NCBI GenBank assembly: GCA_025765615.1 | Contig: JAIVFJ010000288.1 | Coordinates: 1-64,000, forward strand | Direction: 5' to 3' | DNA from: Zopfochytrium polystomum | Lineage: Eukaryota > Chytridiomycota > Chytridiomycetes > Chytridiales > Chytridiaceae | DNA length: 64,000 nt | Part shown: positions 9,124 to 29,399 of the stretch, piece by piece | Position numbering within the stretch: the stretch's first letter is position 1 | How the letters are laid out: every line of letters starts with the position of its first letter | Position numbers and translations under genes: made by a program | The notes under the pieces: generated by a model | What the model saw: the letters and a program-made list of their open reading frames with translations, nothing else | Database searches by the model: none | Told to the model about the DNA's origin: nothing

Positions 9124-10950
9124 GGGGCAATTCCCTGGACCCTCCTCCAAGCTGCCCCTGTTTCATCACCACCACCAGCACCACAAACACCTCAGATTCC
9201 AAGCCCCACCAACTCACCATGGATGTCAAGATTCAACTCTCACCCAAGTCAACCATCACAACCAAGGCCCTTATAGACTCTGGATCATCCTGCAACATCA
9301 TTGATGCCACCCTTGCCAAGTCTTGTGCCATTCCTACGATCAAGAAATCCACACCCCTCAAGGTCCACTTTGCCAATCATGCTCTGTTCAAGGAAATCAG
9401 CCATGAAACCAAGCTAAACCTCCACATCCAAGACTTTCCACCATCTATGGTCAATCTGGAAGTATTGGATCTTGGCTCACCCACATTCTCTGTCATCCTG
9501 GGATTACCATGGCTGCAAGCCCAGAACCCTGCCATTGATTGGGTCACTGGTCAAGTCCAACCTCCACCAATCGGAACAGTCACCCAAAACTCAAGTCAAG
9601 CCCCCAAGTCTCATGCTCTCAAGCCCTTGATTCAAGATTCACAGCCAGCCAAGACTCAAGTTCCACAGTTCACAGTTCACAGTCAAGATTCAAGTAGAGC
9701 TCATAGAGCTCACAGTCATGGCCAAGACTCTAGTTCACAGAACCCACAGTCAAAGATTCAAGTACCACAGTTCACAGTCCACATTCAAGATTCAAGTTCC
9801 ACAGCTCACAGTCTTTGCCAAGAACAGAACTCTCAGTCAAAGATTCAAGAATCACAGTTCCCAGTCAAGAACTCATGCCCCACTGCTGAAGAGCACAGGA
9901 ACTTGGGCCCATCAGACCTTTTGCTGGCATCCAAGCTACCAAAAGAATATCTCCCTTATGCTGATGTGTTTTCCAAGACCAAGGCAGACCTGCTACCAGC
10001 TCAGAGGCCTTATGACTGTGAAATCCCACTCAAGGATGAAACTTGCAGCCCACCTTTCAAGCCACTGTACCACCTCTCTCCACCAGAAGCCAAGGCCCTC
10101 CAAGAATACATTGAAGAAATGCTGAACAAGGGATTCATCCAATCTTCCAAGTCACCAGCTGGAGCTCCCATCTTTTTTGTCAAGAAGAAGGATGGGGGAC
10201 TGAGACCCTGTGTGGACTACAGAGATCTCAATGAGATGACAGTCAAGAACCGCTATCCACTGCCTCTCATCTCTGAATTACTGGACAAACTGAGCCCATG
10301 CAAGGATATTTTCCAAGATTGACCTCAGAGGTGCCTACAATTTGGTCAGAATTAAGCCCCAGGATCAATGGAAGACTGCCTTCAGATGCAAATACGGTCA
10401 CTTTGAGTACTTGGTCATGCCCTTTGGACTTACCAATGCTCCAGCTATTTTCCAAGGCATGATGAATGACATCTTCAGGGATATTCTGGACCTTTTTGTC
10501 ATTGTCTACCTGGATGATATCCTGGTATTTTCATCTGACACTGCAAGCCATATGGGACATGTCAAGACTGTCTTGGAGAGACTCAGACAGCATCACCTCT
10601 ATGCAAAGCTGGAGAATTGTGAATTCCACAAGACCTCCATTGAGTTTTTGGGGTTCATTGTGTCTGACAAAGGGATCTCCATGGCACCAGACAAGATCCA
10701 AACTATTCTTGAATGGAAGGCTCCAAATTCCATCAAGGATGTTCAAAGCTTCCTTGGATTTTGCAACTTCTACAGAACCTTCATTGCCAACTATTCTGCC
10801 ATAGCCAAGCCTCTCACTGATCTCACCAAGAAGACCACCAAGTTTGAATGGACCCCAGCAGCAGAGCAAGCCTGGCTAGCTCTTAAGACAGCAACCACGA
10901 GTGCACCACTCCTTAAGCATGTGGATCCCTTGCTTCCCTTCACCTTGGAT
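9039..10950 (+). pseudogene. pol: Pol: protease and reverse transcriptase, truncated
   Basis: The first open stretch (to 10322) contains the aspartic protease motif [13 protein letters not shown], a repetitive Ser/Gln linker (9590-9880), and the RT fingers/palm start ([17 protein letters not shown]). A one-base shift near 10310, in a TTTT run, moves the frame. The second stretch (10342-10950) continues with GAYNLVRIK, FGLTNAPAIF and the catalytic VIVYLDDILVF box, then the thumb. RNase H and integrase are absent. The codons after 10950 belong to the inserted AT-rich sequence. Confidence 0.85.
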
Positions 10951-11013
10951 ATTTTTCATTACTTTTTGGACATTATTTCTAAAATTTTATTTTCTTGACA
11001 CTTAATAAAAAAA
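10951..11013 (+). repeat. terminal remnant of the AT-rich virus-like element
   Basis: This AT-rich tract matches the right terminal repeat of the element at 25.8-28.9 kb. Both share TTGGACATTATTTCTAAAA, then TTTTATTTYCTTGACACTTA and a run of A. It abuts the truncated RT gene exactly, so insertion or excision of the element, or recombination at its end, probably removed the 3' half of the retrotransposon. Confidence 0.65.
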
Positions 11014-11324
11014 ACTCTTCGCGCGTGAAAGCCTCCGTGGTTAAGGCTGCAAAAGAGTTCCATTTCCAGCCATTAACTTCAAAGCCTCCCACTGGTCAAC
11101 CCCAACATAATGCTCATAAAAGCATTTCCCCATACACAGTGCCACTCCACATGCTGCACAGAGTGTGAAGACAAGTTTCTGCGGCCCAGACAGCTGGCAC
11201 TGCAGGCAAATCCTGCATTTTCTTTCATGAACACCATCAGTGAACAGAAAAGATGTGCATCCAACTTCTCTGGCACTGAAAGTCGTTTCTTTGATTGAGA
11301 AGACTGCTTGTTGTTAGGCGCAAC

Positions 11325-12114: not shown

Positions 12115-15100
12115 TCAAAATTGTATGGCACAAGAAAAGGATTGGCCCAAAGTGAAAATATTTTGCCTTGAGAGGAGCTGGAAACTGCCACGAAATTCAG
12201 GTGGAAGCCAGAAACAGACTTTTGTGACATTGAAGTTGAACCAAACACCACCACTTATTACAGATTCAAGAACCCCTTCCCCACTCTCCAGCCGCTGTCC
12301 TGACGAATTATGTACACTAAAATTGTGTGCCAGGATTGGACCTGTGAGTGTGGTATCACTTCTGTCCACCAGCAATGCTGTTCTAAGCTTGACGAATATT
12401 CTTTTGTCATTTCTGTCCTTCAAAACAACATATTGCCCATCAGCACTAAATCCAGAAGACATTGTGAATGAAAAACCATCCAGCTTATGCAGCTCCTGGC
12501 CAGTGGAAGCATTCCAAATCCTGACTGTCATGTCAGGACTTCTCATATCCTTACTTCCAGACACAACAAATTGCCCATCAGGACTAAATGCTGCAGAGTT
12601 GACAAAATAAGAGTGTCCCTCCAGCTTACGGAGCTCCTGACCAGTTGAAGCCTTCCAAATCCTGACTGTCTGGTCCCAACTTCCAGACACGACAAACTGC
12701 CCATCAGGACTGAATGCTGCAGAGGTGACATTCCAAGTGTGTCCCTCAAGCTTATGCAGCTCCTGACCAGTGGAAGCATTCCAAATCCTGACTGTCTCGT
12801 CATCACTTCCAGACACAAGAAACCGCCCATCAGGACTAAAAGCTGCGGAGTTGACAGAACCAGAGTGTCCCTCCAGCTTATGCAGCTCCTGACCAGTGAA
12901 AGCATTCCAAATCCTGACTGTCTTGTCCCAACTTCCAGACACAACAAACTGCCCATCAGGACTGAATGCTGCCGAGGTAACATTCCATGTGTGTCCCTCA
13001 ACCTTATGCAGCTCCTGACCAGTAGAAGCACTCCAAATCCTGACTGTTTTGTCAGAACTTCCAGATACAACAAACTGCCCATCAGAACTGAATGCTGCAG
13101 AGTTGACTGGACCAGAGTGTCCCTCCAGCTTAGGCAGCTCCTGGCCAGTGGAAGCAATCCATATCCGAACTGTCTCGTCCCAACTTCCAGACACGACAAA
13201 CTGCCCATCAGGACTGAATGCTGCAGAGGCGATATTCCAAGTGTGTCCCTCAAGCTTGTGCAGCTCCTGACCAGTGGAAGCATTCCAAATCCTGACTGTC
13301 TTGTCCCAACTTCCAGAAACAACAAACTGCCCATCGGGACTGAATGTTGCAGAGGTGACATTCCAAGTGTGTCTGGCAAGCTTGTGCAGCTCCTGACCAG
13401 TGGAAGCATTCCAAATCCTGACTGTCTTGTCCCAACTTCCAGAAACAACAAACTGCCCATCAGTACTGAATGCTGCAGAGTTGACTGGACCAGAGTGTCT
13501 CTCAAGCTTATGCAGCTCCTGGCCACTGGAAGCATTCCAAATCCTGACTGTCGTGTCATCACTTCCAGACACAACAAACTGCCCATCAGGACTGAATGCT
13601 GCAGAGTTGACTGGACCAGAGTGTCCCTCAAAAATTTGCAGCTCCTGGCCAGTGGAAGCATTCCAAATCCTGACTGTCTTGTCATTACTTCCAGACACGA
13701 CAAACTGCCCATCAGGACTGAATGCTGCAGAGGTGACATCATCAGTGTGTCCTTCAAGCTTGTGCACCTCCTGACCAGTGGAAGAATTCCAAATCCTGAC
13801 TGTCTTGTCACTACTTCCAGAAACAACAAACTGCTCGTCACGACTGAATGCTGCAGAGGTGACATCATCAGTGTGTCCCTCAAGCTTATGCAGCTCCTGA
13901 CCAGTGGAAGCATTCCAAATCCTGACTGTCTTGTCATCACTTGCAGACACAACAAACTGCCCATCAGGACTGAATGCTGAAGAGTTGACTGGACCAGAGT
14001 GTCCCTCAAAAATTTGCAGCTCCTGGCCAGTGGAAGCAATCCAAATCCTGACTGTCTTGTGAGAATTTCCAGACACAACAAACTGCCCATCAGGACTGAA
14101 TGCTGCAGAGTTGACAGAACCAGAGTTTCCCTCCAGCATATACAGCTCCTGACCAGTAGAAGCATTCCAAATCCTGACTGTCTTGTCATTACTTCCAGAC
14201 ACAACAAACTGACTGTCAGGACTGAATGCTGCAGAGTTGACACCACCAGAGTGTCCCTTCAGCTTATGCAGCTCCTGACCACTGGAAGCATTCCAAATCC
14301 TGATTGTCTTGTCCCAACTTCCAGACACGACAAACTGACTGTCAGGACTGAATGCTGCAGAGGTGACATCATCAGTGTGTCCCTCAAGCTTATGCATCTC
14401 CTGGCCAGTGGAAGCATTCCAAATCCTGACTGTCTTGTCATCACTTCCAGACACAATAAACTGACTGTCAGGACTAAATGCTGCAGAGTTGACTGATGCA
14501 GAGTGTCCCTCAAACATTTGCAGCTCCTGGCCAGTGGAAGCATTCCAAACCCTGACTGTCTTGTCCCAACTTCCAGACACAACAAACTGCCCATCACTAC
14601 TGAATGCTGCAGAGGTGACATCATCAGTGTGTCCCTCAAGCTTGTGCAGCTCCTGACCAGTGGAAGCGTTCCAAATCCTGACTGTCTTGTCCCAACTTCC
14701 AGACACAACAAACTGACTGTCAGGACTGAATGCTGCAGACCTGACACCACGAGAGTGTCCCTCAAGAGTATTTAAACAGGAAGGCCAAGTTTTTGGTTGC
14801 CCCTTTACAACTTTAGGGCACCTTACACTTCGAGGCACATTCTGGATGAAGTTTTTAAAAAATTCAGAGTCACTTGGGGAGAATGGAACAGCAGTGAAGT
14901 AAACTTGCAACGCAGATGCCTGGAGTGGAATGAGAAACTTTTGCAAAACCCTTTTCATGTCTTCCATCAGGGTGTACAGTCGTTTCTTTCCAGGAATAGT
15001 GGCAAGACTCTGGAGCTTTCTCATGGCAGGAATCACCAAATGGAGTGAGTCTAGCAAGCTGCATGCTTCCAAGTAGTGATGTCCGTGTTGCACAAGAAAT

Positions 15101-18100
15101 GTTCGCAATTCAGCAAAAAGAGTCTGATCAAGTAGAAAGGATGGAGTGGTTGGCACAGGCTTCTCAATTGCATCTCCTTGCAAATCTCCAGTGGCCTCTT
15201 CAAATTTTTGTGGAGGAAGTTTCACACTTCCTGGCTGAAGCAGACTGCTGCCTTGAGTGTCTTCCTCAGCGCCAAACCACCTTTCATCACCATCACCATC
15301 ACCATCACCATCCTCTTGGACATTGTTTTCAATGTTTGAGCTGTGTTTGGGTAGCCCATTGGCTCCTGAGTCAAAGCAGTGTTCCCAGAAGTGCTTCACT
15401 GCATATCGGACATGCTCAGGGATTCCATTTCGCACTTTCTCATCAAAATCAGGAATTTCAGAGTGAAAATCTGAAAATGGCAGATCACACATATTAAATT
15501 TGAGATTCTTGTCCATCGCACTGATGCACAGCCTTGCAAATTCAGAGTGGCTACGTTTTACATCAATCTGAACTGACAGCTTGCATCTTTCTGGAGTTGT
15601 CAGGTAGTCCTTGACAGACTTGTGGAAAATCCTGATCTTCTTGGTGGAACCATCAAGCACAAGGATTGAATCAAGCATTCGGACGCACTTCATCACATTT
15701 TCAGGTTCCTCCTTGTCCAGCAGAGAGACAATGGCTACTGCAGTCAGAGGTTCATAGGCAAGAACAATGGTGGACAGCACAGTATGAAGAAGAGTTTCCA
15801 AATGACTTTCTTTGACAGACTCCAGAATGGCGGCAAAGATTCTGTCATACATCAAGTCAATGCTTCCATCCATCTTGTCGCCCTCAGGAAGGTCTTTAAT
15901 TTGCTCAATAGTAAATTCTTCAGCATGGGAATTCTTCAGGTAAGTGCAAGCAGTCACAAGCCAGACGAAAATTCCAGCGGACTTTGACACCAGAATCTCA
16001 GATCCCTTATCAACAACAGATTGCTTAGCTCCTAGAGACCTGAGGTAATTTCTTGTAAAATCAATCTGGTCCTGAGTGTTTTCCTCTGCCGTTGGCTCAA
16101 TCTCCTCAAATGGAATCTTCTCAAAGGCTTTCACAATATCGACTTCAGGGCGTCCAGTCACTAGCAACTTCACATTATCAGGAAGCAGTCTGTTCAGTTC
16201 CTGAAACGCTGCAAGAATCTCATTCCTCTTTCCAATAACACTGCATTCATCAAGTGCATCGACAACCAGGACCACAGGTATATCCAGCTTCTTAGCTTCA
16301 ACGACTTTCTTCAATGGCTGAACAAGCAGCACCTTCATCATCTCAAACACTGATTTGGACAGAATATCTGGATCGTCTTGCTTGACTTGAAGTAGAATCT
16401 CTCCATACTGAAGACTAAACCTTGCAAGACCAAAGACAAGAGTCAAGACCAGGTTTCGAGCACTGCTACGACGCTCGTCATCATGCTTGCAGAAGAACAA
16501 GCCACCAAGCATGCCCTGGGCCTGAAGCGCCCTGGACACCATAGCAGCCATCACAGACTTGCCCACTCCAGCCACACCTTTCAACCACATCACCCTGTTG
16601 GTGTTAGCTACTGAAGGATCATCTGGAGACAAAAACTTGAACACTCTCTCAAGCAGCCACTGCCTAGATCCAGAAAGCACATTCTTCAGGAGAGATTCCC
16701 TCTCAAGATCCATGATTTCAGACAGGGGAGACAACCATTTCTCCAATTCAGCAAAACTAGATCTGGAAAGTAAATATCTTGGCTTGGACTAGGAGTCTTC
16801 AATTCAGCCTTGCGGCGACTGTACACTTCTCTGGCTTCAGTCACAATCCTTTTACGAGAAGATCAGGTGAGGGCAGGTGTAATGTTGGCACTTACTTCAT
16901 TACATCATTCTCAGGATTTGCCTTTGGCCCATTCAGGTCTAAAATCATCTTGATTGTTTGAGATACAGATTGGAGGCCAGGACTTAAAGGGTGGGCATGG
17001 GGGCGGTCGGGAAACTTCTTGAGGTCAAAGGTACTGAAGTCCACCATGACCTTCGCCTTTTTGCCATTCGCCAACGTTGCCTCATCTCGGTATGAAAGAA
17101 GAACAGGCAGGATGTCATGGCCTCTTTCTTTCTTCATCTGAAGTGCAAGCTCCCACTAAAGGTGTTTGTCAGTACAATGTGGATGAGGAGGAAGAACTCA
17201 CTTCTAACAAGCAGTTATCAGGCTCTGAATCAGCCTTTTGCATTCTCATCATGCTTGCATCAGAACACAAGAGAATGATGACTTTCGAGTGAAACAGTCC
17301 AGACATGAAGTTGATACCCCATTCCTCAGCGTAAGAAAGGCATTCTGCATCCAAGAAAGCATGTCTCCCATCGAGCTTGGACTCCTCAGGAAGGACAGAT
17401 CCAGTGTAAGCTTCCAAGAGGTTGATCTTCATCCATTCAAAAATACTTTTTGCAAAGGCCGTTTCAGATGCTTGTCGGTAGCTGGCAGAGTTTTAACATA
17501 GGTGAAAAGCAAAACTGAGAATACCTGATAAAAAAAGGGTGCTTTTGAACCTTAGTTTTGCACTCCCACTCATCTGGAATCAGTTCAATCCATTTATCTA
17601 CAGATAGAAGAAGACAAGTGTTTGCATTTACGAAACTAACTGAAACGACTTTCTCACCTTTCTTGCGTGCAAGACTTTTATCGTAGATGTCATCTGCAGT
17701 AGCAGCAACAGATCCAGTAGGAGGAGCAGCAGCCAGTCCAGGGCTGTTTGTGGCCGTGGCAGAAACACTCCCAGTGGAGATAGCTTTCACAGCGCCAAGA
17801 ACCTTTCAAGTTTTTAGAATTTGAGAATTGAATCAAACAGAGAAGGGCAGACAGAACATAATAATTACCTTCCACTTATAATTCTGAGTAAACATGTTAG
17901 ACAGATCATCATCTGCATCAAGGATTGTTGCATCGTTTGTGGCGGGGTCCACGTAAAGCAACTCCACGGCATCAGGGATCTGGAATTTGGCAGCAACAAG
18001 CTGAAGCAAGCCGTTGAAACCAGTGGCTGTAGGTACACGGATCTTCCTTCCAATGCCTTCATACACAAAGATCACAGTCCATGCAGTCACTTGGTTGGCC

Positions 18101-19693: not shown

Positions 19694-20060
19694 ACTACAT
19701 CAAGGCTGTCGAACTTGACAGAAGCAGGGTTGCTGCAGGTCCGCAGGGCAGTTGTCACCATTGGGGGGAAACATTCACAGTAGGGCTGAAACCTGGGGCC
19801 ATCCGCTCTGCATCATCATCTGATTCAGCAGTTTTACTCCCTTTTTCTGTTCTGAGGCACTGCAGGCAAAGCGGAGTGAAAGGCCTGGACAGTACAGGCT
19901 TGCTCCTTAAATGAGGCTAAGGTTGGGTAACTGTTCCATGTTTGGGTCCCAATAGTTGCGTGAGAACTTGCTTCAATTCAGTTTAATCCAGCTCCCCTTT
20001 GGGGTGCTGGATTACTCATATCTCGTGGCGAGGTGGTTAAGGCGGAGCCTTTCCATATCT
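19694..20060. other. region without a recognisable gene
   Basis: Spacer between the ABC pseudogene and the AT-rich block. Near 20028-20052 a tRNA-like A-box string (TGGCGAGGTGGTTAAGGCG) appears, but no complete tRNA fold follows. Confidence 0.4.
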
Positions 20061-20109
20061 TAAAATTAATTGAAGTGATTTTTTAAGCTCATATTTTCTT
20101 TTTGAGTCC

Positions 20110-20470
20110 TCTTTACATTTGTCAGGATTTCGAACAGTGTAGATTAGTCATCAACTGCACCTAGATAATTCAGTGCATAAATATCTAGAAAATGATTGAA
20201 AATGAACACTAAAAGAATCGAATGCAAGGAAATAAAAATGATAAGGGAGAAGATATAACAAAAAATATATATGATAACCTGAGAAAATGCAAAGGGGAAA
20301 AAAATGGAGAGGTAAAGTCATTTGCAAATGCTGATAGATGTGGAAGCATGTCAAAAAAAGGGAGAGTGTTGTGGTTTCATAAGTTTTTAAGAGTCTGATG
20401 GCACAGCAAGAAATTATGTGAAACAATATATGAAAATTTTTTTGAAAAATATTTTGATATATTATTTTGC
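20110..20470 (+). mobile_element. AT-rich virus-like element, remnant copy A
   Basis: A short, degenerate copy of the start of the elements at 20.6 and 25.8 kb. It matches the tail of the small minus-strand gene (GATTTCGAACAGTGTAGA near 20128) and the beginning of the polymerase-helicase gene (AATGAACACTAAAAGAAT near 20201 and TCATTTGCAAATGCTGATAG near 20319). It ends with the same AT-rich hairpin seen after other genes of the block. Confidence 0.6.
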
Positions 20471-20646
20471 CTATAGAAGGAAACTCATATTATATTTGAG
20501 AGTAATTTAATGGAGAAATAGAATGTGTGGACGTCTGTTCAACGCACAAATGGAAAATAAATAGAATGGTTATTGTGAAATAATATATGAAAACTTTTTT
20601 GAAAATTTTTTTGATATATTATCTTTCTGTGGGGAATGGGTATATG

Positions 20647-20892
20647 TTAATTGACAAATGTATCAAACAGAGTAGTGTCAGGAATGGGAAGACGCTTACC
20701 CTGATATTGTTTCCTTTGTCGAAATTTATCAGGATGTCGAACAAAGTACATTAGTTTATCAACTGCAGTAGGATTAAGAGCTTTTCTCTTCTGAAATTCT
20801 TGGACAACAAAAAGATAATGTCGCAAAAAGTCTGACTTGGAAAGAGCAAGAGTTTGATCTTGAAGTGGAGATTCCATATTATCATAAATCAA
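20647..20892 (-). CDS. small conserved protein of the AT-rich element
   Basis: 81 residues starting MIYDNMES. It has no family I recognise. The core DQTLALSKSDFLRHYLFVV recurs almost unchanged in the ORF at 25806-26210. The C-terminus PIPDTTLFDTFVN shares DTFVN with the ORF at 24647-24904. It is divergent from the polymerase-helicase gene and is followed by an AT-rich hairpin at 20576-20622. Conservation across copies suggests a real product, perhaps a small regulator or replication accessory. Confidence 0.6.
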   Translation of the reverse strand: MIYDNMESPLQDQTLALSKSDFLRHYLFVVQEFQKRKALNPTAVDKLMYFVRHPDKFRQRKQYQGKRLPIPDTTLFDTFVN

Positions 20893-20901
20893 GAAGACAA
20901 A

Positions 20902-23475
20902 TGTTTAAATTAGCGCGCGTTGAAAAATTGAAAATATATTCATTAGACATTTTAAACCAAAAATAACTAATGATTGAATTAGAAGAAAAAATGAACACTA
21001 AAAGAATTGAACAAGTGTTGAAATGCAAGAACATAATTAATAAAGAGATGATATAACAAAAAGTATACATGAGAACTTGAGAAAATCCAAAGTGAAAAAA
21101 AGTAGAGTTGTAAAGGTAAAGTATTCATTTGCAAATGCTGATAAATATGGAAGGCTTTATAGACAAAGGCTATCAAGATATGGCAAAAAAAAGTAAGACA
21201 TTATCTAATGGATGGAATGTATGGAGACATTGATATAAAAAACTGTCATCCAGTTCTGTTAGATCAATTAATGGAAAAAGAAAAATTCGGCCAAAATGAA
21301 TCTTAAAGAACTATGTAACGAATAGAGAAGAAGTTTTAAAGAAGTATGGATTAGATAAAGAAAATGTAATAAAAATGTTATATGACTCTGAGTTTTACAG
21401 TTACAATGATGATATCGAAAAAATGTTGAATGTAATGTATGGAAGAAATGGTGAGAATGGATTTGTAGATAAACTGTCTTGGGTATATAGTACTATAATG
21501 TCTGATGTTTCGAAAAAAGAAAAGGAAAATGTGAAAGAAAGTTTTTTATCACTTGTCTTACAAGATATTGAAAATCAAATATTGGTGGTAATGTATAAAA
21601 AGTTCAAGGAAATGGATCTAGAAATAGGAACATTAATGTTTGATGGACTAACAATTGAGAAGAATAGTGTAAAAGATAAAAACATGGATGAATTACTCTT
21701 GGAGTAGAGAGAACAGTGAAAAAAGAAACTGGTCATGAAGTTAAATTAGTAGAAAAGCCAATGGAAGAGAAATGGAATCCTGAGAATATGGATGTTAATA
21801 AAGCAAAAGAAGAAATGAAAGTTTTCGTGGAGGAACATAATGGTGATGTTATTGAAAATATTATTGATAAAACAGATGATAAAGGGGTTATTGAGCTTAG
21901 ATCAAAGATGACTAAAGCTGCTGATATGTTCGAATTTTTCAAAAAATGCGAAGATGGTTGCGATAGGGAACATGTTATGATCAAGGATGGTTACTATTGC
22001 GAGTGCATAAAATGTAAACAACATATCCAAGAAACCAATTATGTACACAAATTCCTTCTAAATATATTACTTTGACCCAATTTTTTTGGAGTCAATGTAA
22101 CAATCAACAACTACAACTTTAATGGAAATTCATATATAGAATTAATAAAGAAAAGTGAGGGCCTCAAAAATAAACACAGATATATTTAATGACAAAACTA
22201 AAGAGAAACTATTAAAAGCGTTTATTTGTACAACAAGCCATAGGAGATTTGTTGATATCGTTAAATACTACACAGAAAATGACCCTAACTTCAGTTTTGA
22301 ATATGTTGGTAAAATAGATGGAAAACAAGTTGGTACCAATGGAGTAATGGAATATGGTGTCAAACTGAATCTCCTGAAATTGATTTTATATTTGAATCTA
22401 TAGAAGAAGATTATAAAAAAATACTGTGTCATGGAGTGTCAGAAAAAAGTAAATCGTACTCTCATTTGGAAAAAATAACAAAGACTGTGGTGACAAGTCA
22501 TTTCGAAATCAAGTCATGAACATGTGGATGAAAGTATTCAAAAATGAAACTTTTGAGCTTATTGATAGTAATCCGTACTTGGTGGGGTTCAACAATGGAC
22601 TGTATGATTTGAAGGAAATGGTTTTCAGACCAAGAAAGAAAGATGACTATATATCAATGACTGTTGGATATGACTTCAAAGAAAGTTCCAACGTGTATAG
22701 AGATGAATAATGAAATTCTTCTCTGACATAATACCAAACCCTGAAAATAGGCATTTCTTGTTGAAAACACTATCATCAACATTACTCGGGAAGAATAGAG
22801 AAGAACGCTTAGCTATCTTTACAGGTAAGACAAGAAATCGAAAAGGAGTTTTAACAGATTTGATGGCCTGTACTTTGGGTGATTATATGGCTACTCCTTC
22901 TGGCTGTTTCATACAAGAAAATAGACCTGATACAGGGTCTCCTGATCCTCATTTGTTAGACTTGAGAAAGAAAAGATTGATTCTAATGAATGAAATAACA
23001 GACAATAAACCTTTGAATAGTCCTTTTGTAAAAAACTTGGTAGGAAATGACTCTATTCGATGTAGAACATTGTATTCTTCAAGAATTATAACATTTAAAG
23101 CACAATTCAAATGATTATAAATTGCAATGAAAGACCTCCTATAGATGCAGGGAAAAATGATTTATGGTCAAAGATTTATCTGTTAATATTCCCAATAACG
23201 TTGTGGACTCAGAACGTGAAATAAAAGATCCTTCTATTGAAAAATTAAAGAATCCGACTTTAAAAGAAAAGATAACATTATGGAAGGAAGAATTTATGTG
23301 CATTCTTATTGAATATTATAAGAAGTACATAGAAGAAGGGGTTGACTATAATCCTGATATAATAAACATGATACAAAAAGAGAAACGTGAATATGATAGT
23401 ATCAAAGATTATATAGATAACTATTTAGAACGAAACGATAATGGTGTTTTTAAAAGTGAGTCTGGTTATAAATAA
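20902..23475 (+). pseudogene. TVpol-like polymerase fused to SF3 helicase, decayed
   Basis: About 860 codons long, spread over several frames. The N-terminal part reads GDIDIKNCHPVLLDQLM near 21230, TLMFDGLTIEKN near 21630, and a zinc-ribbon-like CECIKCKQH near 22010. The D-x-N-x-HP and FDG pair resembles the family A-related polymerases called TVpol. The C-terminal part matches a D5-type SF3 helicase: NGLYDLKEMVFRP, VGYDF, LILMNEITD. The P-loop region reads GKTRNRKG instead of GxxxNGKS, and further breaks occur near 21300, 21710, 22080, 22400 and 23115. The gene is therefore inactive but keeps domains that copy C has lost. Confidence 0.7.
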
Positions 23476-23482
23476 CTATTTA

Positions 23483-23804
23483 GAGGTCGTTTCAAGTGGA
23501 AAAGGCGGAAATCTTTACTGGGGAAAAAAAGATTTGATTGGCTGAAAACTTAATGGAGGAAACATTTTCCTCCATTTCCTTGCCACAGCTAATCTTGCTC
23601 TATTTCTTTAATTGAGCTAATTCAGCTAATTCACTCAGTCCGGGAGGTGGTCTGTCTCCTCGGGTGGTCCGTCTCCGCCAGCGAAAAAATCTTTTTCTAT
23701 TTTTTCACTTGCTCATGTGCCAGTCTGTGGAAACAGCACTTGGAACAACCATTTCCTTGTTTGCTCAAAAATCTTTTCCGCCTTTTCCTACTTGAAACGA
23801 CCTC
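23483..23804. mobile_element. MITE-like element, 322 bp, TTA target duplication
   Basis: Left end GAGGTCGTTTCAAGT-GGAAA and right end, inverted, GAGGTCGTTTCAAGTAGGAA form terminal inverted repeats of about 30 bp. TTA flanks both sides (23480-23482 and 23805-23807). There is no ORF. A TTA duplication with long inverted repeats suits a PIF/Harbinger-like non-autonomous transposon. It lies directly after the helicase stop codon. Confidence 0.75.
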
Positions 23805-23819
23805 TTAGCAATAAATAAA

Positions 23820-23963
23820 ATGAAGATGAAGAAAAAAACGAACCTTAGAGAAGATTTTATAAAACATTTGGGAACTCCTCAGGATCAAAATCCTGCATGG
23901 TCTTATTGGATTGGTTGGTCTTTTATTTCTAACGATATTGATCCTGTTGTTGATGATTTGTGA
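23820..23963 (+). CDS. small ORF, 47 residues
   Basis: Starts MKMKKKTNLREDF and ends NDIDPVVDDL, with a central aromatic patch NPAWSYWIGWSF. I do not recognise it. It lies just after the MITE and before an AT-rich hairpin (24010-24070), within copy B. Short length limits confidence. Confidence 0.35.
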   Translation: MKMKKKTNLREDFIKHLGTPQDQNPAWSYWIGWSFISNDIDPVVDDL

Positions 23964-24359
23964 TGATGTATAAGTTTTGTTGTAAACTGATGCTTGTCAG
24001 TATTGTAATTATTTTTTTTTTTAAAAAATCAAAAGTAAATAAAAATGATAAATTGAACTTTGATTTTTTTTCTATACATAGAGACGATGAAGTAATACAT
24101 TATAATAAATAAATAAAGAAGACCATAAATAAGGTTGTAAAAGAGTGAGATTTCTTCAACTTAGAAAGTGAGAGAAAAAAGAACTTATACAATGAGTCGA
24201 TAAGAACTTATACAAGATCTATACGATCTAATACATGGTCACAAATATATCACAAAGAAGAATTTTTTTTTGTAAACATTGATCCACAAGGCATTCAAGA
24301 ATAAATAATGAGGACTATAAAAATAACAAATTAAAATATTTTGAAATTATTTTGATATT

Positions 24360-24560
24360 TTACAGTTGAGAAGTCTGTTCAACTGTTAGAAAAATGTTAG
24401 ATTTAGATTCAGGGTTAAATTCCAAAAAGGAAATAGTCCGAAACGTCTGTTCGACGAGTTCCTTTCGAAACAATGAAATCAAATAAGGAAATATTAGAGA
24501 AAAGCTAATGAAATGGTATATTGGGAAAACCATGTGAAAGCTTGTGAAGTATGACACAAA
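24360..24560. repeat. direct repeat shared with 28.15-28.36 kb
   Basis: The run AACGTCTGTTCGACG, followed by AATAAGGAAATATTAGAGAA and AAGCTAATGAAAT, recurs at 28255-28330 in copy C. It marks homologous 3' regions of the two elements. Confidence 0.65.
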
Positions 24561-24646
24561 TTAGGATAAAAATGATTGTGTGAAATAATATATTAAAACT
24601 TTTTTGAAAATTTTTGATATATTATATGTGGTGGGTTAGGTACTCT

Positions 24647-24904
24647 TTAATTGACAAATGTATCTAACAAAGTGTGAGAAGGTGTTTCAGATGGTTTCTT
24701 AGAAGAACGAGAATTACGTTGGTAGAATTTCTTTTGAAGATCATTGAGTTTTTCCAAGTTTTTAACAGCATAAATAGTTGAATGGAGTGCACTGGAGTTA
24801 TTTTTCTTAAGATCATTCATTTTAGCTGAGACATGAAGATGGAGTCGAACGAGGTCACGTTGAGACATATTGTCAATGTGTTGAAGAAGTTCATTAGATA
24901 ACAT
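24647..24904 (-). CDS. second small conserved protein of the AT-rich element
   Basis: 85 residues: MLSNELLQHIDNMSQRDLV at the N-terminus, Lys-rich middle, and SHTLLDTFVN at the C-terminus. The DTFVN ending equals that of the ORF at 20647-20892, suggesting a family with a conserved tail. It is followed on its 3' side by an AT-rich hairpin (24578-24626). Function unknown. Confidence 0.5.
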   Translation of the reverse strand: MLSNELLQHIDNMSQRDLVRLHLHVSAKMNDLKKNNSSALHSTIYAVKNLEKLNDLQKKFYQRNSRSSKKPSETPSHTLLDTFVN

Positions 24905-25013
24905 ATTAGTTCAAAAATGACACTGAAATAAGCTTTAAATGTGTAGCGCGGAGGGATGCCAAAACAAAAGTGTTAAAATATAATATCAATGGAGAATGAA
25001 GTTTTAACAATGG

Positions 25014-25698
25014 CGTGTGTGAATTGTGGAAAGATGACAAAGAAAAAGAGAGGGAAATGGGCGGGGAGGATGTATATGGTGTGAAAAATGTGCCAAAGCG
25101 AGAGTTGAGAGTAATGAAATTATTAAAAACAGCTGGATATAATATGTACATGACAAAGTAATAAGATCAGCAGAAAAATATGCGTATGATAATGAAGGGA
25201 ATTTGACAGGAATTGTTGAAACAAAGACAATTAGAAAATACAGACCAGATTTCATATTAAAGGCCAGGTCACATTTTGTAATACTTGAGGTAGATGAGAA
25301 TCACATAGAAATTATGGTCACACACAAATATGTGAGATGATAAGAATGAACAATATAATATATGAGCTTGGTAGTCCAACAAGATTTACAAGATATAATC
25401 CAGACGCAGTAGTGGATGAAAAAGAGAAAGAAGAAGTATTATGGAAGTTATTGAAAAAGCAATGGAAGAAGAAATGCAAAGTGTGATTGAAAGAATATAT
25501 GTGTTTTATGGAGATACTTATGAATATAAAAATAGCAAAAAAGAGAGAAGAGCAGTGCAAATAGTAATAGATGGATATTCATATGAATACATTGATGGAG
25601 AACTAAGAATGTTGAGGGATGAGTGCTTGAGGACGTACGATAAATATGAAAGTCCAGAAAGAGAAGATTATAAGTTTTCCAGAGTGCATGGGAAATAA
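25014..25698 (+). pseudogene. PD-(D/E)XK-like nuclease with zinc ribbon, frame-broken
   Basis: An ATG at about 25014 begins MACVNCGKMTKKKRGKW. After a shift, CEKCAKARVESNE completes a four-cysteine zinc ribbon. A third frame gives YRPDFILKARSHFVILEVDE and then CEMIRMNNIIYELG with RFTRYNPDAV. That string resembles nuclease proteins common in giant viruses and related elements, with candidate catalytic Asp and Glu in RPDF and EVDEN. A final frame (25441-25698) supplies a charged helical tail ending DYKFSRVHGK. At least three frame breaks or stops are present. Confidence 0.55.
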
Positions 25699-25744
25699 AA
25701 TCAGAATTTTTTTGAAAATACTTTGATATAGATAATTTTGCGAT

Positions 25745-25845
25745 AATGGATTAAAAAAAAGCTTTCAGAAAGGTTCTGGTTTTGTAGTGGAGGTAAAACC
25801 GAACACTACAAAGCCGCAGAAAGCTTTTTTTTAAAAAGTGTCAAG
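25745..25845. repeat. palindromic junction of two element termini
   Basis: TTAAAAAAAAGCTTTC near 25751 mirrors GAAAGCTTTTTTTTAA near 25820, with GTAGTG/CACTAC hairpin sequence between. The right half (25776-25845) is the inverted counterpart of 28866-28938. The junction therefore looks like the right end of copy B meeting the left end of copy C. Confidence 0.7.
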
Positions 25846-25929
25846 AAAATCTCATACTTCTCAAAACATAACGAGGACAATAAAAATAACATATTAAAAA
25901 AATTTTGGAAAAAATTTGATATAATGTAT

Positions 25930-26210
25930 TTTATGAAATGCCCGCTAAAATGCATAGAGGTGTCTGGAATGGGCGGCTGACTGCTAGAATGTAAGAGTGT
26001 TATCCTAAGTTTGATATACTGCATATGATTATTTTCCTTAATTATATCAGGGTGTTGATCAGCGTATAATAGTTTATTTGTTGCAGAAGAATTAAGAGAC
26101 TTTCGCCTGTGAAATTCATGGACGACAAAAAGATAATGTCGCAAGAAGTCTGACTTGGAAAGAGCTAGTGTTTGATCTTGGAGAGGGAGATTCCATGTTA
26201 CATTATTCAA
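25930..26210 (-). CDS. small conserved protein, copy C
   Basis: Starts MNNVTWNLPLQDQTLALSKS and continues DFLRHYLFVVHEFHRRKSLN, nearly the same as the ORF at 20647-20892. The tail contains PIPDTSMHF where the copy B protein has PIPDTTLFDTFVN, so the true end may be lost to a frame change; the open frame runs on to 25806 through non-homologous sequence. It is divergent from the helicase gene with a short shared leader. Confidence 0.55.
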
Positions 26211-26221
26211 GAAGACAAATG

Positions 26222-27720
26222 TTTAAATTAGCGCGCGTTCAAAAATTGAAAATTAATTCATTAGACATTTTAAACCAAAAAACTCTAATGATTGAATTAG
26301 TACAAAAAATGAACACTAAAAGGATTGAACAAGTACTAAAATACAAAGGTCCTATAATTAATGATGAAGGATACATGATAACTTGAGAAAATGTAAAGCA
26401 AAGACAAAGGTGAAATATTCATATGGAAAAGATAAAGATTCTGAAAAATATAAAGATTATGGAAGACTTTATGCAGACAAAGGCTACCAAAACATGTCAA
26501 AAAAAGTAAGGAATTACATAATGAATGAAATGTACATAGATATTGATATAAAAAATTGCCAACCAGTGTTGTTGCATCAATTTATGATGGAACAAATAGA
26601 AAAGGAAAGTGAGTTCCAAAGGAATTATGTAGCGAATAGAGAATGTGTATTAAAAAAGTATGGATTAGATAAAGAGAGGTTATATTTTAAGAAAAATAGG
26701 AATTTTGCAAACTTATTAAATAGCAATTTACATTATGTTCCATTCACAAATGGATTGTATGATTTATCGAGTGCAACGTTCAGACAAATACAACCAGAAG
26801 ACAATATTCAAGATACTACTGGTTATGATTTTGTAAATGGGGAGACAGGATTAGAAGCAGAAGTGTGGAATGTGTTAAAACAAATACTACCAAACGAGAG
26901 TGTAAGAGACTACATGTTACAGCAAATGAGTTATGCATTAGATGGAAAGAAACCAAATACAGTATTCATGATACTAACGGGGAGTGGTTCAAATGGAAAG
27001 AGTATTTTATTAACATTGATGGAGATGACAGTAGGAATATTTGCAGATAAAGGTCAAGTTACTCTTATGACTCGAAAGAGAGGAGATCCAAACCAAGCAT
27101 CTCCTGAGCTAGTAAAATATAGAACTAAACGATTTGTATTTCTAAGTGAACCAGAAGATGGTGAGAAATTAAACATAGGACTACTGAAGGAATTGACAGG
27201 CGGCGAGTCTTTTGTTGGAAGAGAGTTATATTGTGGGTGTATAACATTTAAATTGTATGCAAAATTTTACTTGGCTTGTAACACCATGCCTCAAATTAAA
27301 GGGGAAGATGAAGCGTTATGGAGAAGAATTAGAGTTGTGAATTTTGAATCAAAATTTGTAGAAAATCCGTCAAATCCAAATGAATATAAAATAAATAAAA
27401 ACTTGGAAAATGAAATGAAAGAAGATCTTCGATGGAGGCAGACATTTATGAATATATTGATAGATTATTATAACAAAGAAGAAATACCTGAACCACCTGA
27501 AGTGTTAGGTAGAACTGATGAATATAGAATTGAGAACAGTATGATGGAAAATTGGATTAAAGCGAATATAAAAGAGTCTGAAACTGATTTTATAGACTCA
27601 AAAGAATTATGCGACTGGTACAAATTGGATAATGACCTTAAGGAATTTGGCAACCAAGATAGAGGAAAATTACGTACTGAAGTTACTAGGGTTATCAACA
27701 AAGTGTTCAAAAAAATATAA
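26222..27720 (+). CDS. SF3 (D5-type) helicase with truncated polymerase domain
   Basis: Coding starts MFKLARVQKLKIN near 26222, and the frame shifts at about 26384 to the long open frame ending 27720. The polymerase-like part keeps only YIDIDIKNCQPVLLHQF (His of NCHP is Gln), then jumps to NANLLNSN-like sequence and TNGLYDLSSATFRQ, so several hundred residues present in copy B are deleted. The helicase is complete. Counting from 26383, it has P-loop GSGSNGKS (residues 200-207), Walker B FVFLSEPED (about 251-259), sensor YLACNTMP (about 295-302), and the arginine finger region ALWRRIRVVNF. It would unwind DNA as a hexamer during replication of the element. Confidence 0.8.
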
Positions 27721-27884
27721 CATGTATTACTAAGAAAATAAATGGAAAAACAAAAAGTGTTTGGGAGGGGTTTAAAATGGATGATGGTGATGGTATTAAT
27801 AATGATATTGTCGTGGATGTGGGTATTTGAGAGGGGTTAGAACGGTTAGAAAGGGGTTAGAACGACTTTTTTTTGTAAAGTGAA

Positions 27885-28145
27885 AATATATACCATTTTC
27901 ATATCAAAATTTATAAAAGGTTAGAAGGTTAGAAGGTTAGAATGATTTGAAGGGTATTGAAACTAAAGAGGGAGATAGAATTATTTTTTCCCGCCCAAAA
28001 AAAATTGCAGATATTCTCAAGAAAAAGTGGGAAAACGTTCTAACTCTTCTGTCTTCTAACCTTTTATAAATTTTGAAATAAAAATGGTCTAAGAAATGAA
28101 AAAAGAAAAAAGTTATTCTAACCTTCATTCTAACCTTCTAACCAA
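27885..28145. repeat. inverted repeat with GGTTAGAAG units
   Basis: TTTATAAAAGGTTAGAAG with further GGTTAGAA units at 27908-27940 is mirrored by CTTCTAACCTTTTATAAA near 28053-28070. The arms could form a large stem-loop 3' of the helicase gene. Confidence 0.6.
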
Positions 28146-28865
28146 CAGTGAGTTCAATAGGTTCATATTAGGGGTAGTTTGTTCGACAGGTTCATATTAG
28201 AGTTAGCAAAATGTTAGAATCAGTCAGGGTTAATTTCCAAATAAGGGAATAGTTCGGAACGTCTGTTCGACGGGTTCGATCTGAAACAAGAATACCAAAT
28301 AAGGAAATATTAGAGAAAAGCTAATGAAATTTACCATAAATTAGGAAGAAAATATTGGGAAAAAATATATATGAAAATTTGTAGAAAAAAAAAACAACAA
28401 CAAATAATATGTTTCATGTAAGAGCTAGTGAAATGTGACACAAATTAGAATATGATATTGAGATTAGATTTTTTAGTGGCGATGTAATATACATTTCAGT
28501 TGATAAATATATATTACACATTTTATCAAATGAAATGTAACCATAAATTAGGTTAGAAATGTTAAAAAAAGACTTTAGTTGCTGATGTAATATACTTTTC
28601 AGTCGACAAATATATATTACAACATTTTATTCAAATTATACACCATATTTATGTCACATTATTAGAAAAGAAGACAAAAAATTAGGATTAGGGCTAAAAA
28701 AATGTCAAATAATTAGAAAAATTAGAAAATATAACCAGAAATATGATTAAAATACTCTAAATTCTCGTGAAACAGTCCATAAAAAACTTTAATATCAAAT
28801 TTTATTAAAAAAATCTTTATATATTATATTTTGTTCTTTTTTTGGACATTATTTCTAAAATTTTA
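28146..28865. other. AT-rich non-coding end of copy C
   Basis: No ORF is supported. It contains the direct repeat shared with 24.4 kb and two copies of a CAGTYGAYAAATATATATTAC motif near 28497 and 28600. Confidence 0.5.
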
Positions 28866-29399
28866 TTTCCTTGACACTTATTAAAAAAAAGCTTTCTGCG
28901 GCTTTGTAGTGTTCAGTTTTACCTCCACTACGAAACCGGACAAGGCAGGAGAGCCACATAATGGGATGAGCTTGGGGAGGAGAGCAACCCATGAGGTGCA
29001 GGAGGAACAGAGGAGGAAAGAGTTTCAGCAAAGGTGTTGCGAATCATGGTAATGGCATCAGCAGCTGCAGGGCATTGCCAGACATGCTCTGTGGTTCCAA
29101 AGTGTGGTGGCATCAACGACAGTGGCCGTTGTAGTAGACTGTGGGCAAAGTGTTGCTGAGGATTTGGAGTTTGGTACTTGTGACGAGTAGAGCCAGGGAG
29201 GGTGCCAAAGAGGGAAGAGGGTTTAACACCAGAGTGGAGAATGAGAAATGTGGCTTTCCAATGAAGTATGTCAGGGTTGTGGGCGATGTGGGCAAAGGCT
29301 GAGGTGGTCAGAAGAGCAAAATGATGAGAGAGACTGTGAGGAGTCGCAGTTGTCGTCGAAGTTGGTCCAAGACAAGGGTATTTGAGATGAAGGTGTTAG

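Follow-up and report, generated by a model that had tools for sequence, protein, structure and literature searches.

The AT-rich block at about 20061–28940 of the window (the whole stretch analysed: 64,000 nucleotides, part of contig C288 of the Zopfochytrium polystomum genome) was studied together with the whole assembly of 80.2 Mb in 761 contigs. We consider it probable that small, linear replicons of double-stranded DNA, ending in imperfect hairpins, were captured here and have since decayed, leaving the block as a cluster of their copies. On our best reading of the sequences, these replicons would be related to Polinton-like viruses (PLVs) by their replication gene, a fusion of a TVpol-type polymerase domain and an SF3 helicase, and to nucleocytoviruses by the architecture of their telomeres. 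The data suggest that linear, virus-like DNA with hairpin ends formerly replicated in the fungus and that its capture happened on many occasions.

The GC content per kilobase is 0.278–0.332 across 20001–29000 and 0.396–0.713 in the remaining kilobases of the window, which agrees with an initial annotation that placed a block of AT-rich elements in a GC-richer genome. That annotation also described at least three related copies lying next to each other. Three related pieces are indeed present, but one is a fragment, one is a decayed copy (20722–23475), and the inverted-repeat-bounded copy at 25775–28940 has lost polymerase motif C by deletion; thus, no copy in the window is intact. The broken state of all window copies had been overlooked, as had the hairpin-telomere architecture. 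The features are as follows:

20061–20674, plus strand: fragment of a related element with a short piece of the TVpol frame (20229–20346); 83% to the copy on contig C63 (locus L017); internal repeats D10, D11 and D18
20722–23475, plus strand: decayed copy of the TVpol-SF3 gene with many stops; motif A in 21163–21306, motif C (MFDG) in 21300–21707, SF3 piece in 22707–23114
23484–23804, no strand: insertion of about 320 bp with 31-bp inverted repeats (arms 97%), inside the decayed copy and foreign to the element; the C63 copy is without it
24578–25747, plus strand: nuclease unit with a broken zinc-ribbon/PD-(D/E)XK-type gene at 25041–25686 (tblastn to protein P0003 at 40–50%, with stops; family motifs)
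25748–25849, no strand: complete imperfect internal palindrome (hairpin family T1), flanked by the 'B' arm on the nuclease side and the 'A' arm on the other (fold of an example and arm search)
25775–25935, plus strand: left terminal inverted repeat of the TVpol-SF3 module (window self-comparison)
26368–27720, plus strand: 450-aa open frame in which the TVpol motif A region is joined to the SF3 helicase (in-frame internal deletion of 1152 bp)
28778–28940, minus strand: right terminal inverted repeat (window self-comparison)
28866–28940, plus strand: arm motif TTTCCTTGACACTTATTAAAA, then a terminal hairpin that is cut short; from about 28941 on, other DNA (GC 0.52)
10949–11039, plus strand: solitary 91-bp telomere fragment lying in host-like DNA and broken off close to the hairpin tip; it belongs to family T2, with 98.7% over 77 bp to the end on contig C198 and an adjoining 34-bp match

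Comparison of the window with itself revealed that the 20229–20346 piece recurs at 21027–21153. A reading frame had been annotated at 20902–23475; it is not open, the gene being broken by stops, with five TGA, one TAG and four TAA inside the first matched stretch. Terminal inverted repeats were found for one copy only: the pair 25775–25850/28865–28940 is 76 nt long and 93% complementary, and can be followed over about 163 bp at 77.5%. Within this copy, the 450-aa frame lacks 1152 bp (384 codons) of the gene copy on contig C118, or 1151 bp when compared with the copy on C144, the deletion point being 26681/26682. Because the 1152 bp are missing in frame, the helicase follows polymerase motif A directly, and a pattern search of 26368–27720 found no motif C. 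The frame was therefore rejected as an intact polymerase-helicase.

The motifs DIDIKNC(H/Q)P, MFDG, GSGSNGKS, SEPED and ACNTMP, on which the annotated fusion of an N-terminal domain to an SF3 helicase had been based, were all located in the block. The C-terminal domain is confirmed as an SF3 helicase: the window protein matches PHROG 1156 with an E-value of 2.7e-54, its Pfam matches being weak (DUF5906 at 27.0 bits, against a cut-off of 27.6, and D5_N at the cut-off), and the C118 copy matches NCBIfam primase_Cterm at 5.5e-32. The C118 copy is an open frame of 822 aa (P0002). Its N-terminal domain was compared by hhalign with a TVpol-type profile built from 11 proteins (two come from IMG/VR viral contigs) and with AEP primases of the same genome, giving 99.95% and 0.04%, respectively, while a positive control of AEP against AEP gave 99.6%. 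An AEP primase, the alternative that the initial annotation had singled out, was rejected on these values, and the assignment of the domain to the TVpol type, as in PLVs and virophages, holds by profile comparison (the name TVpol is taken from PMC4642659 and PMC12220804). The D-x-D-x-x-N-x-x-P and [FHY]DG motifs are both present in this domain, the second being the one deleted in the window frame. Two alignments, of 11 and 16 sequences, have D79, D81, N84, P87, N174, E188, D212, G213 and K246 as invariant residues (numbering of protein P0018). Fusions named TVpol-S3H have been described, and AEP-S3H proteins are found in some PLVs too, according to the available text of PMC4642659 and PMC12220804.

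Sixteen environmental proteins match P0002 (14 from one search and two from another). The best match falls at residues ca. 94–364 for 13 of the 14, and in the helicase part for P0006; the closest relative, P0018, is 40% identical over 72% of P0002 residues 100–400. Two more relatives, on the IMG/VR viral contigs L027 and L028, were found by a scan with alignment A1, while IMG/VR scans with P0002, P0018, P0003 and the L030 protein were without result. The L028 contig also codes for a GIY-YIG nuclease (E 6e-6) and has a weak AAA match; no capsid protein was named by Pfam among the 10 scanned frames of the two contigs, which their gene content, as we read it, would assign to PLVs. No match in GenBank phages was obtained with the N-terminal domain, with residues 1–349 of the L028 protein or with P0003. 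Full-length P0002 matches 828 GenBank phage records, and in the 20 listed only residues 424–821 (linker and helicase) match. A sequence search of the PDB gave no credible match for the N-terminal domain; for the SF3 part of the A1 profile, the best match was poxvirus D5, followed by a protein called Primase and by ASFV C962R structures. Separately, five homologues carry PolB_2 behind the same N-terminal domain (P0011, P0014, P0015, P0016 and, by label only, P0017). We know of no earlier description of such a fusion, no literature search having been aimed at it.

At its right end the window element carries the arm motif (...TTTCCTTGACACTTATTAAAA), followed by the greater part of an imperfect palindrome and then by other DNA. 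The arm motif is found at 58 genome sites with two mismatches or fewer, and a control with the pattern reversed is found at one. All 58 sites were read, and after three repeats (two on C114 and one on C344) were dropped, 55 ends with distinct downstream sequence were left; truncated ends are missed when ends are located by the arm motif. Inner sequence divides the 55 into 24 internal and 31 terminal ends. A complete palindrome of 54–81 bp is present at every internal end, and incompletely paired terminal hairpins are present as sequence in the integrated copies, examples of which were folded. The TVpol module as a freely flipping unit was rejected, the sorting by inner sequence being in agreement with palindrome completeness (24/24 internal ends complete).

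The hairpins fall into five families, in four of which the loop occurs both ways between fixed arms. For each family, a single reference palindrome and its reverse complement served for scoring, which put 40 of the 55 ends in the flop form and 11 in the flip form and left 4 ambiguous (flop/flip: T1, 24/4; T2, 2/3; T3, 7/3; T4, 5/1; T5, 2/0). Some elements have opposite loop forms in their internal and terminal copies, for example those on C262 (L053, L054), C319 (L056, L057) and C117 (L048, L071). Flip and flop forms together with inverted repeats are described for poxvirus and Kaumoebavirus hairpins in the available text of PMC8956199 and PMC7909422; a free, hairpin-ended linear form would therefore be the most likely past state of the present elements. 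The arm and the base of the vaccinia hairpin have 20 of 24 nt equal; when the terminal 162 bp were shuffled by dinucleotide and either strand was allowed, 5 of 5000 shuffles did at least as well. The corresponding stretch of the window element differs by one base and scores 19, a value that 17 of 5000 shuffles reach. In 191,779 bp from 20 loci, all 15 sites scoring at least 19 against vaccinia are hairpin ends of the present type.

At the 31 terminal junctions, the fraction of the palindrome that is kept has a median of 0.49; it is within 0.35–0.70 at 24 junctions and never below 0.35, while five junctions are at 0.72–0.85 (the window's own end at 0.72) and two are above 0.9. Since the ends were located by their arm, retention of the arm is given, whereas the stop near the tip is not. 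The flanks on C144 and C554, and likewise those on C66 and C184, are duplicates (120 bp downstream compared), leaving 29 independent junctions; the C75 and C319 flanks share 37 bp of one repeat. Apart from four ends considered below, the terminal flanks are host-like (GC 0.35–0.62) and nearly all different, several lying in repeats found at other loci. The solitary 91-bp piece at 10949–11039 keeps a fraction of 0.49, and no target-site duplication is evident there by eye. The first 80 downstream bases are identical at three terminal ends of C114 (105528, 125267 and 131211), two of which face outward 5.9 kb apart; the trio is probably duplicated host DNA, and the outward-facing pair looks like an inverted duplication.

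That the elements are endogenous in a fungus, as originally proposed, is supported. The assembly has 21 Chitin_synth_1 segments, which support a fungal host, and a mis-join or contaminant is unlikely because the 31 distinct terminal ends continue into other sequence that is for the most part host-like and nearly always different. The proposal that the elements are capsid-less or reduced is covered only in part, the islands having been read in part. No packaging ATPase was found in the assembly with PF04665 (A32) or the L028 ATPase-like protein, searches that divergent ones could escape; the NCLDV capsid model PF04451 matches once, on another contig: a 53-residue fragment (L029 3227–3385, C206:50226–50384) of host-like GC outside the AT-rich islands. 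VLTF3 is present in one copy, in an AT-rich island at C340:1–8000 (L073) that also has frames with phage-collar and caspase domains and, by eye, RING-like frames. This island is likely a nucleocytovirus remnant.

In the assembly, the 822-aa protein has at least 61 matches and DUF5906 at least 30, more related pieces than chance would bring. Internal and terminal ends were paired by hand from arm-motif coordinates, yielding 21 pairs. Fifteen are spaced 0.63–0.85 kb, too short for the TVpol-SF3 gene; the gene lies inside the pairs on C118, C144, C554 and in the window (3.0–4.2 kb), and the pairs on C262 and C344 measure 2.1 and 2.8 kb, their interior sequence not being read through. The shared gene order that the initial annotation saw among the window copies recurs between islands of the genome and less so inside the window, and consists of a PD-(D/E)XK-type nuclease gene, the internal palindrome and the TVpol-SF3 module. 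Among the matches listed for nuclease P0003, 19 of the 21 pairs have one outward of the internal palindrome; none is listed for C262 and C446, and that on C56 is 1.75 kb off. The invariant nuclease residues, PDF...E.DE..H...CE..RM...RYNPD in an alignment of 13 sequences, read as typical of PD-(D/E)XK enzymes. Of 28 environmental nuclease relatives, 18 are labelled with an EsV-1-7 motif, and a PDB sequence search with P0003 gave nothing credible.

Other islands code for AEP-SF3 proteins, including one open frame of 951 aa (Prim-Pol, PriCT_2, D5_N) whose best PDB match is ASFV C962R, in the helicase part. Further island genes code for D12 methyltransferases, a MUG113 protein and a leucine-rich repeat (LRR) protein. 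An A-type telomere was not found at the left end of the islands, and the nuclease unit has no sharp boundary on its left. One of five 'B' arms found on the nuclease side ends in a broken hairpin (L023 7971, C75:16970), followed by a piece of another element, which hints that the 'B' arm was once a telomere of its own.

Three side observations concern the window. At the insertion 23484–23804, the C63 copy (L017 4206–4209) provides the uninterrupted site, and the flanking matches overlap by 4 bp, as would result from a transposon of the miniature inverted-repeat (MITE-like) kind. A motif near GTCTGTTCGACGGGTTC recurs outside genes at 24445, 28256, 20531 and 28179, as well as in other islands at the left border of the nuclease unit, and is perhaps a binding site. 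On the minus strand, 12115–16746 is a 1543-aa NACHT-WD40-like frame with near-identical WD repeats (named by eye).

The following course of events would account for the captured replicons. Their DNA, presumably covalently closed at its ends, would have multiplied extrachromosomally, and the ends would have been copied through into palindromic junctions. A structure-specific nuclease, which may have been the neighbouring PD-(D/E)XK-type protein or an enzyme of a helper virus or the host, would then have resolved the junctions into hairpins, and the loop would thereby have been left in either orientation. In poxviruses, replication gives palindromic junctions, which a resolvase converts to hairpins. 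Now and then, a hairpin tip would have opened and the end been joined to a chromosomal break, probably by end joining and without an integrase; such opening and joining would explain the junctions without one. No transposase or integrase (tyrosine recombinase or rve) was found among the island frames scanned with Pfam, a partial scan that was not genome-wide.

Several observations weigh against captured small replicons. Only integrated copies were seen, all those in the window are broken, and free DNA has not been observed. No island has a telomere on both sides, as judged from arm-motif coordinates, save for the C114 pair, and the internal palindrome has two different arms. The terminal module is in one orientation beside the nuclease gene, unlike what is expected from random concatemers. 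Three terminal ends enter gene sequence of other islands (L011 9729, L034, L066), and the L062 end enters unplaced AT-rich DNA of 23% GC. The likeness of the arm to vaccinia is suggestive only, as it was spotted post hoc; the arm fits the poxvirus consensus only partly, and IMG/VR contains no exact match to the arm motif.

Some of the same observations could be accommodated if the islands were broken-off ends of one or more large hairpin-ended nucleocytoviruses infecting the fungus, with subterminal TVpol-SF3 or AEP-SF3 genes and with one telomere and a random inner break per capture. This would fit the telomere on one island side only and the varying island size, down to the 91-bp fragment, and it gains from the VLTF3 island on C340, the capsid fragment on C206, and three kinds of island genes: those for AEP-SF3 proteins, for D12 methyltransferases and for a nuclease with EsV-1-7 motifs in its environmental relatives. 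However, the existence of five hairpin families, and of paralogous helicases by the dozen, points to many replicons, the VLTF3 and capsid models match once each and the A32 ATPase not at all, compared with at least 61 TVpol-SF3 matches, and the two markers are on contigs without demonstrated linkage to hairpins. We therefore regard such an origin as unlikely.

Chromosomal DNA transposons with palindromic ends, comprising an autonomous 4-kb TVpol-SF3 element and non-autonomous 0.7-kb derivatives moved by an unknown transposase, are a good deal less probable still. The 21 paired modules, 15 of them short (0.63–0.85 kb) and four with TVpol-SF3, and the terminal inverted repeats are what such a family would leave, but the junctions scatter about the hairpin tip with no fixed end base, the loops flip and flop, the partial scan of island frames revealed no transposase or integrase, and the 91-bp relic shows no duplication by eye. 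Palindromes are error-prone, and several flanks are repeats common to loci, as might be expected of snap-back chimaeras formed during assembly or amplification. An artefact of this kind is nevertheless scarcely credible, given 31 terminal ends (29 without duplicates) with nearly all different neighbours, 24 complete internal palindromes and contigs of up to hundreds of kilobases.

If captured replicons are the right explanation, flip and flop hairpins preserved in a host genome document extrachromosomal replication, and tip junctions document entry. Arm motif, loop orientation and tip-centred junctions together make a sequence test that can be used on other genomes. More tentatively, and with rather more doubt than belief, the elements might represent a mobile-element class absent from the literature searched: small, possibly capsid-free linear replicons with poxvirus-like flip/flop telomeres, a TVpol-SF3 or AEP-SF3 gene and a telomere-side nuclease, kept by a fungus either as plasmids or as nucleocytovirus satellites and entering chromosomes only via capture of opened hairpins.

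Among known systems, the PLVs and virophages with TVpol-S3H (PgVV, PLV-YSL1, PLV-RED1 and Sputnik, PMC4642659; cryptophyte PLVs, PMC12220804) resemble the present elements, as far as the available text of these sources goes, in the TVpol-SF3 fusion, terminal inverted repeats and multi-copy insertions; AEP-SF3 proteins occur in the genome studied here too. Unlike them, the present elements have flip/flop hairpins, junctions near the tip and a fungal host, with no capsid gene or ATPase in what was searched; the word hairpin is absent from the main text of both papers. Maverick/Polinton transposons likewise have inverted repeats and a self-encoded replication protein, but no PolB or rve integrase was present among the island frames scanned (without a genome-wide search), and no duplication was seen by eye at one small case. 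In Rhizophagus irregularis, an endogenous asfar-like region (PMC10640383) also testifies to a large dsDNA virus in a fungal host. According to the available text it is one 1.5-Mb stretch, in contrast to the dozens of small elements here; the words hairpin and Polinton are absent from the main text of that paper, which states that, as of 2023, no dsDNA virus infecting fungi was known. The hairpin-ended nucleocytoviruses (poxviruses, ASFV, chloroviruses and Kaumoebavirus; available text of PMC8956199 and PMC7909422) share incompletely paired hairpins beside inverted repeats and a D5-like helicase, flip/flop forms being present in poxviruses and Kaumoebavirus; the arm's resemblance to the vaccinia hairpin base is a suggestive further likeness. 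The present module differs in its size of about 4 kb and its TVpol-type gene, a full viral gene set was not seen, and it is known from integrated copies alone. The protein and the telomere type were thus each already known, while their combination, or such elements in fungi, was not found reported in the literature searched, most subscription papers being outside its coverage. The present case ties a Polinton-like replication gene to telomeres known from nucleocytoviruses.

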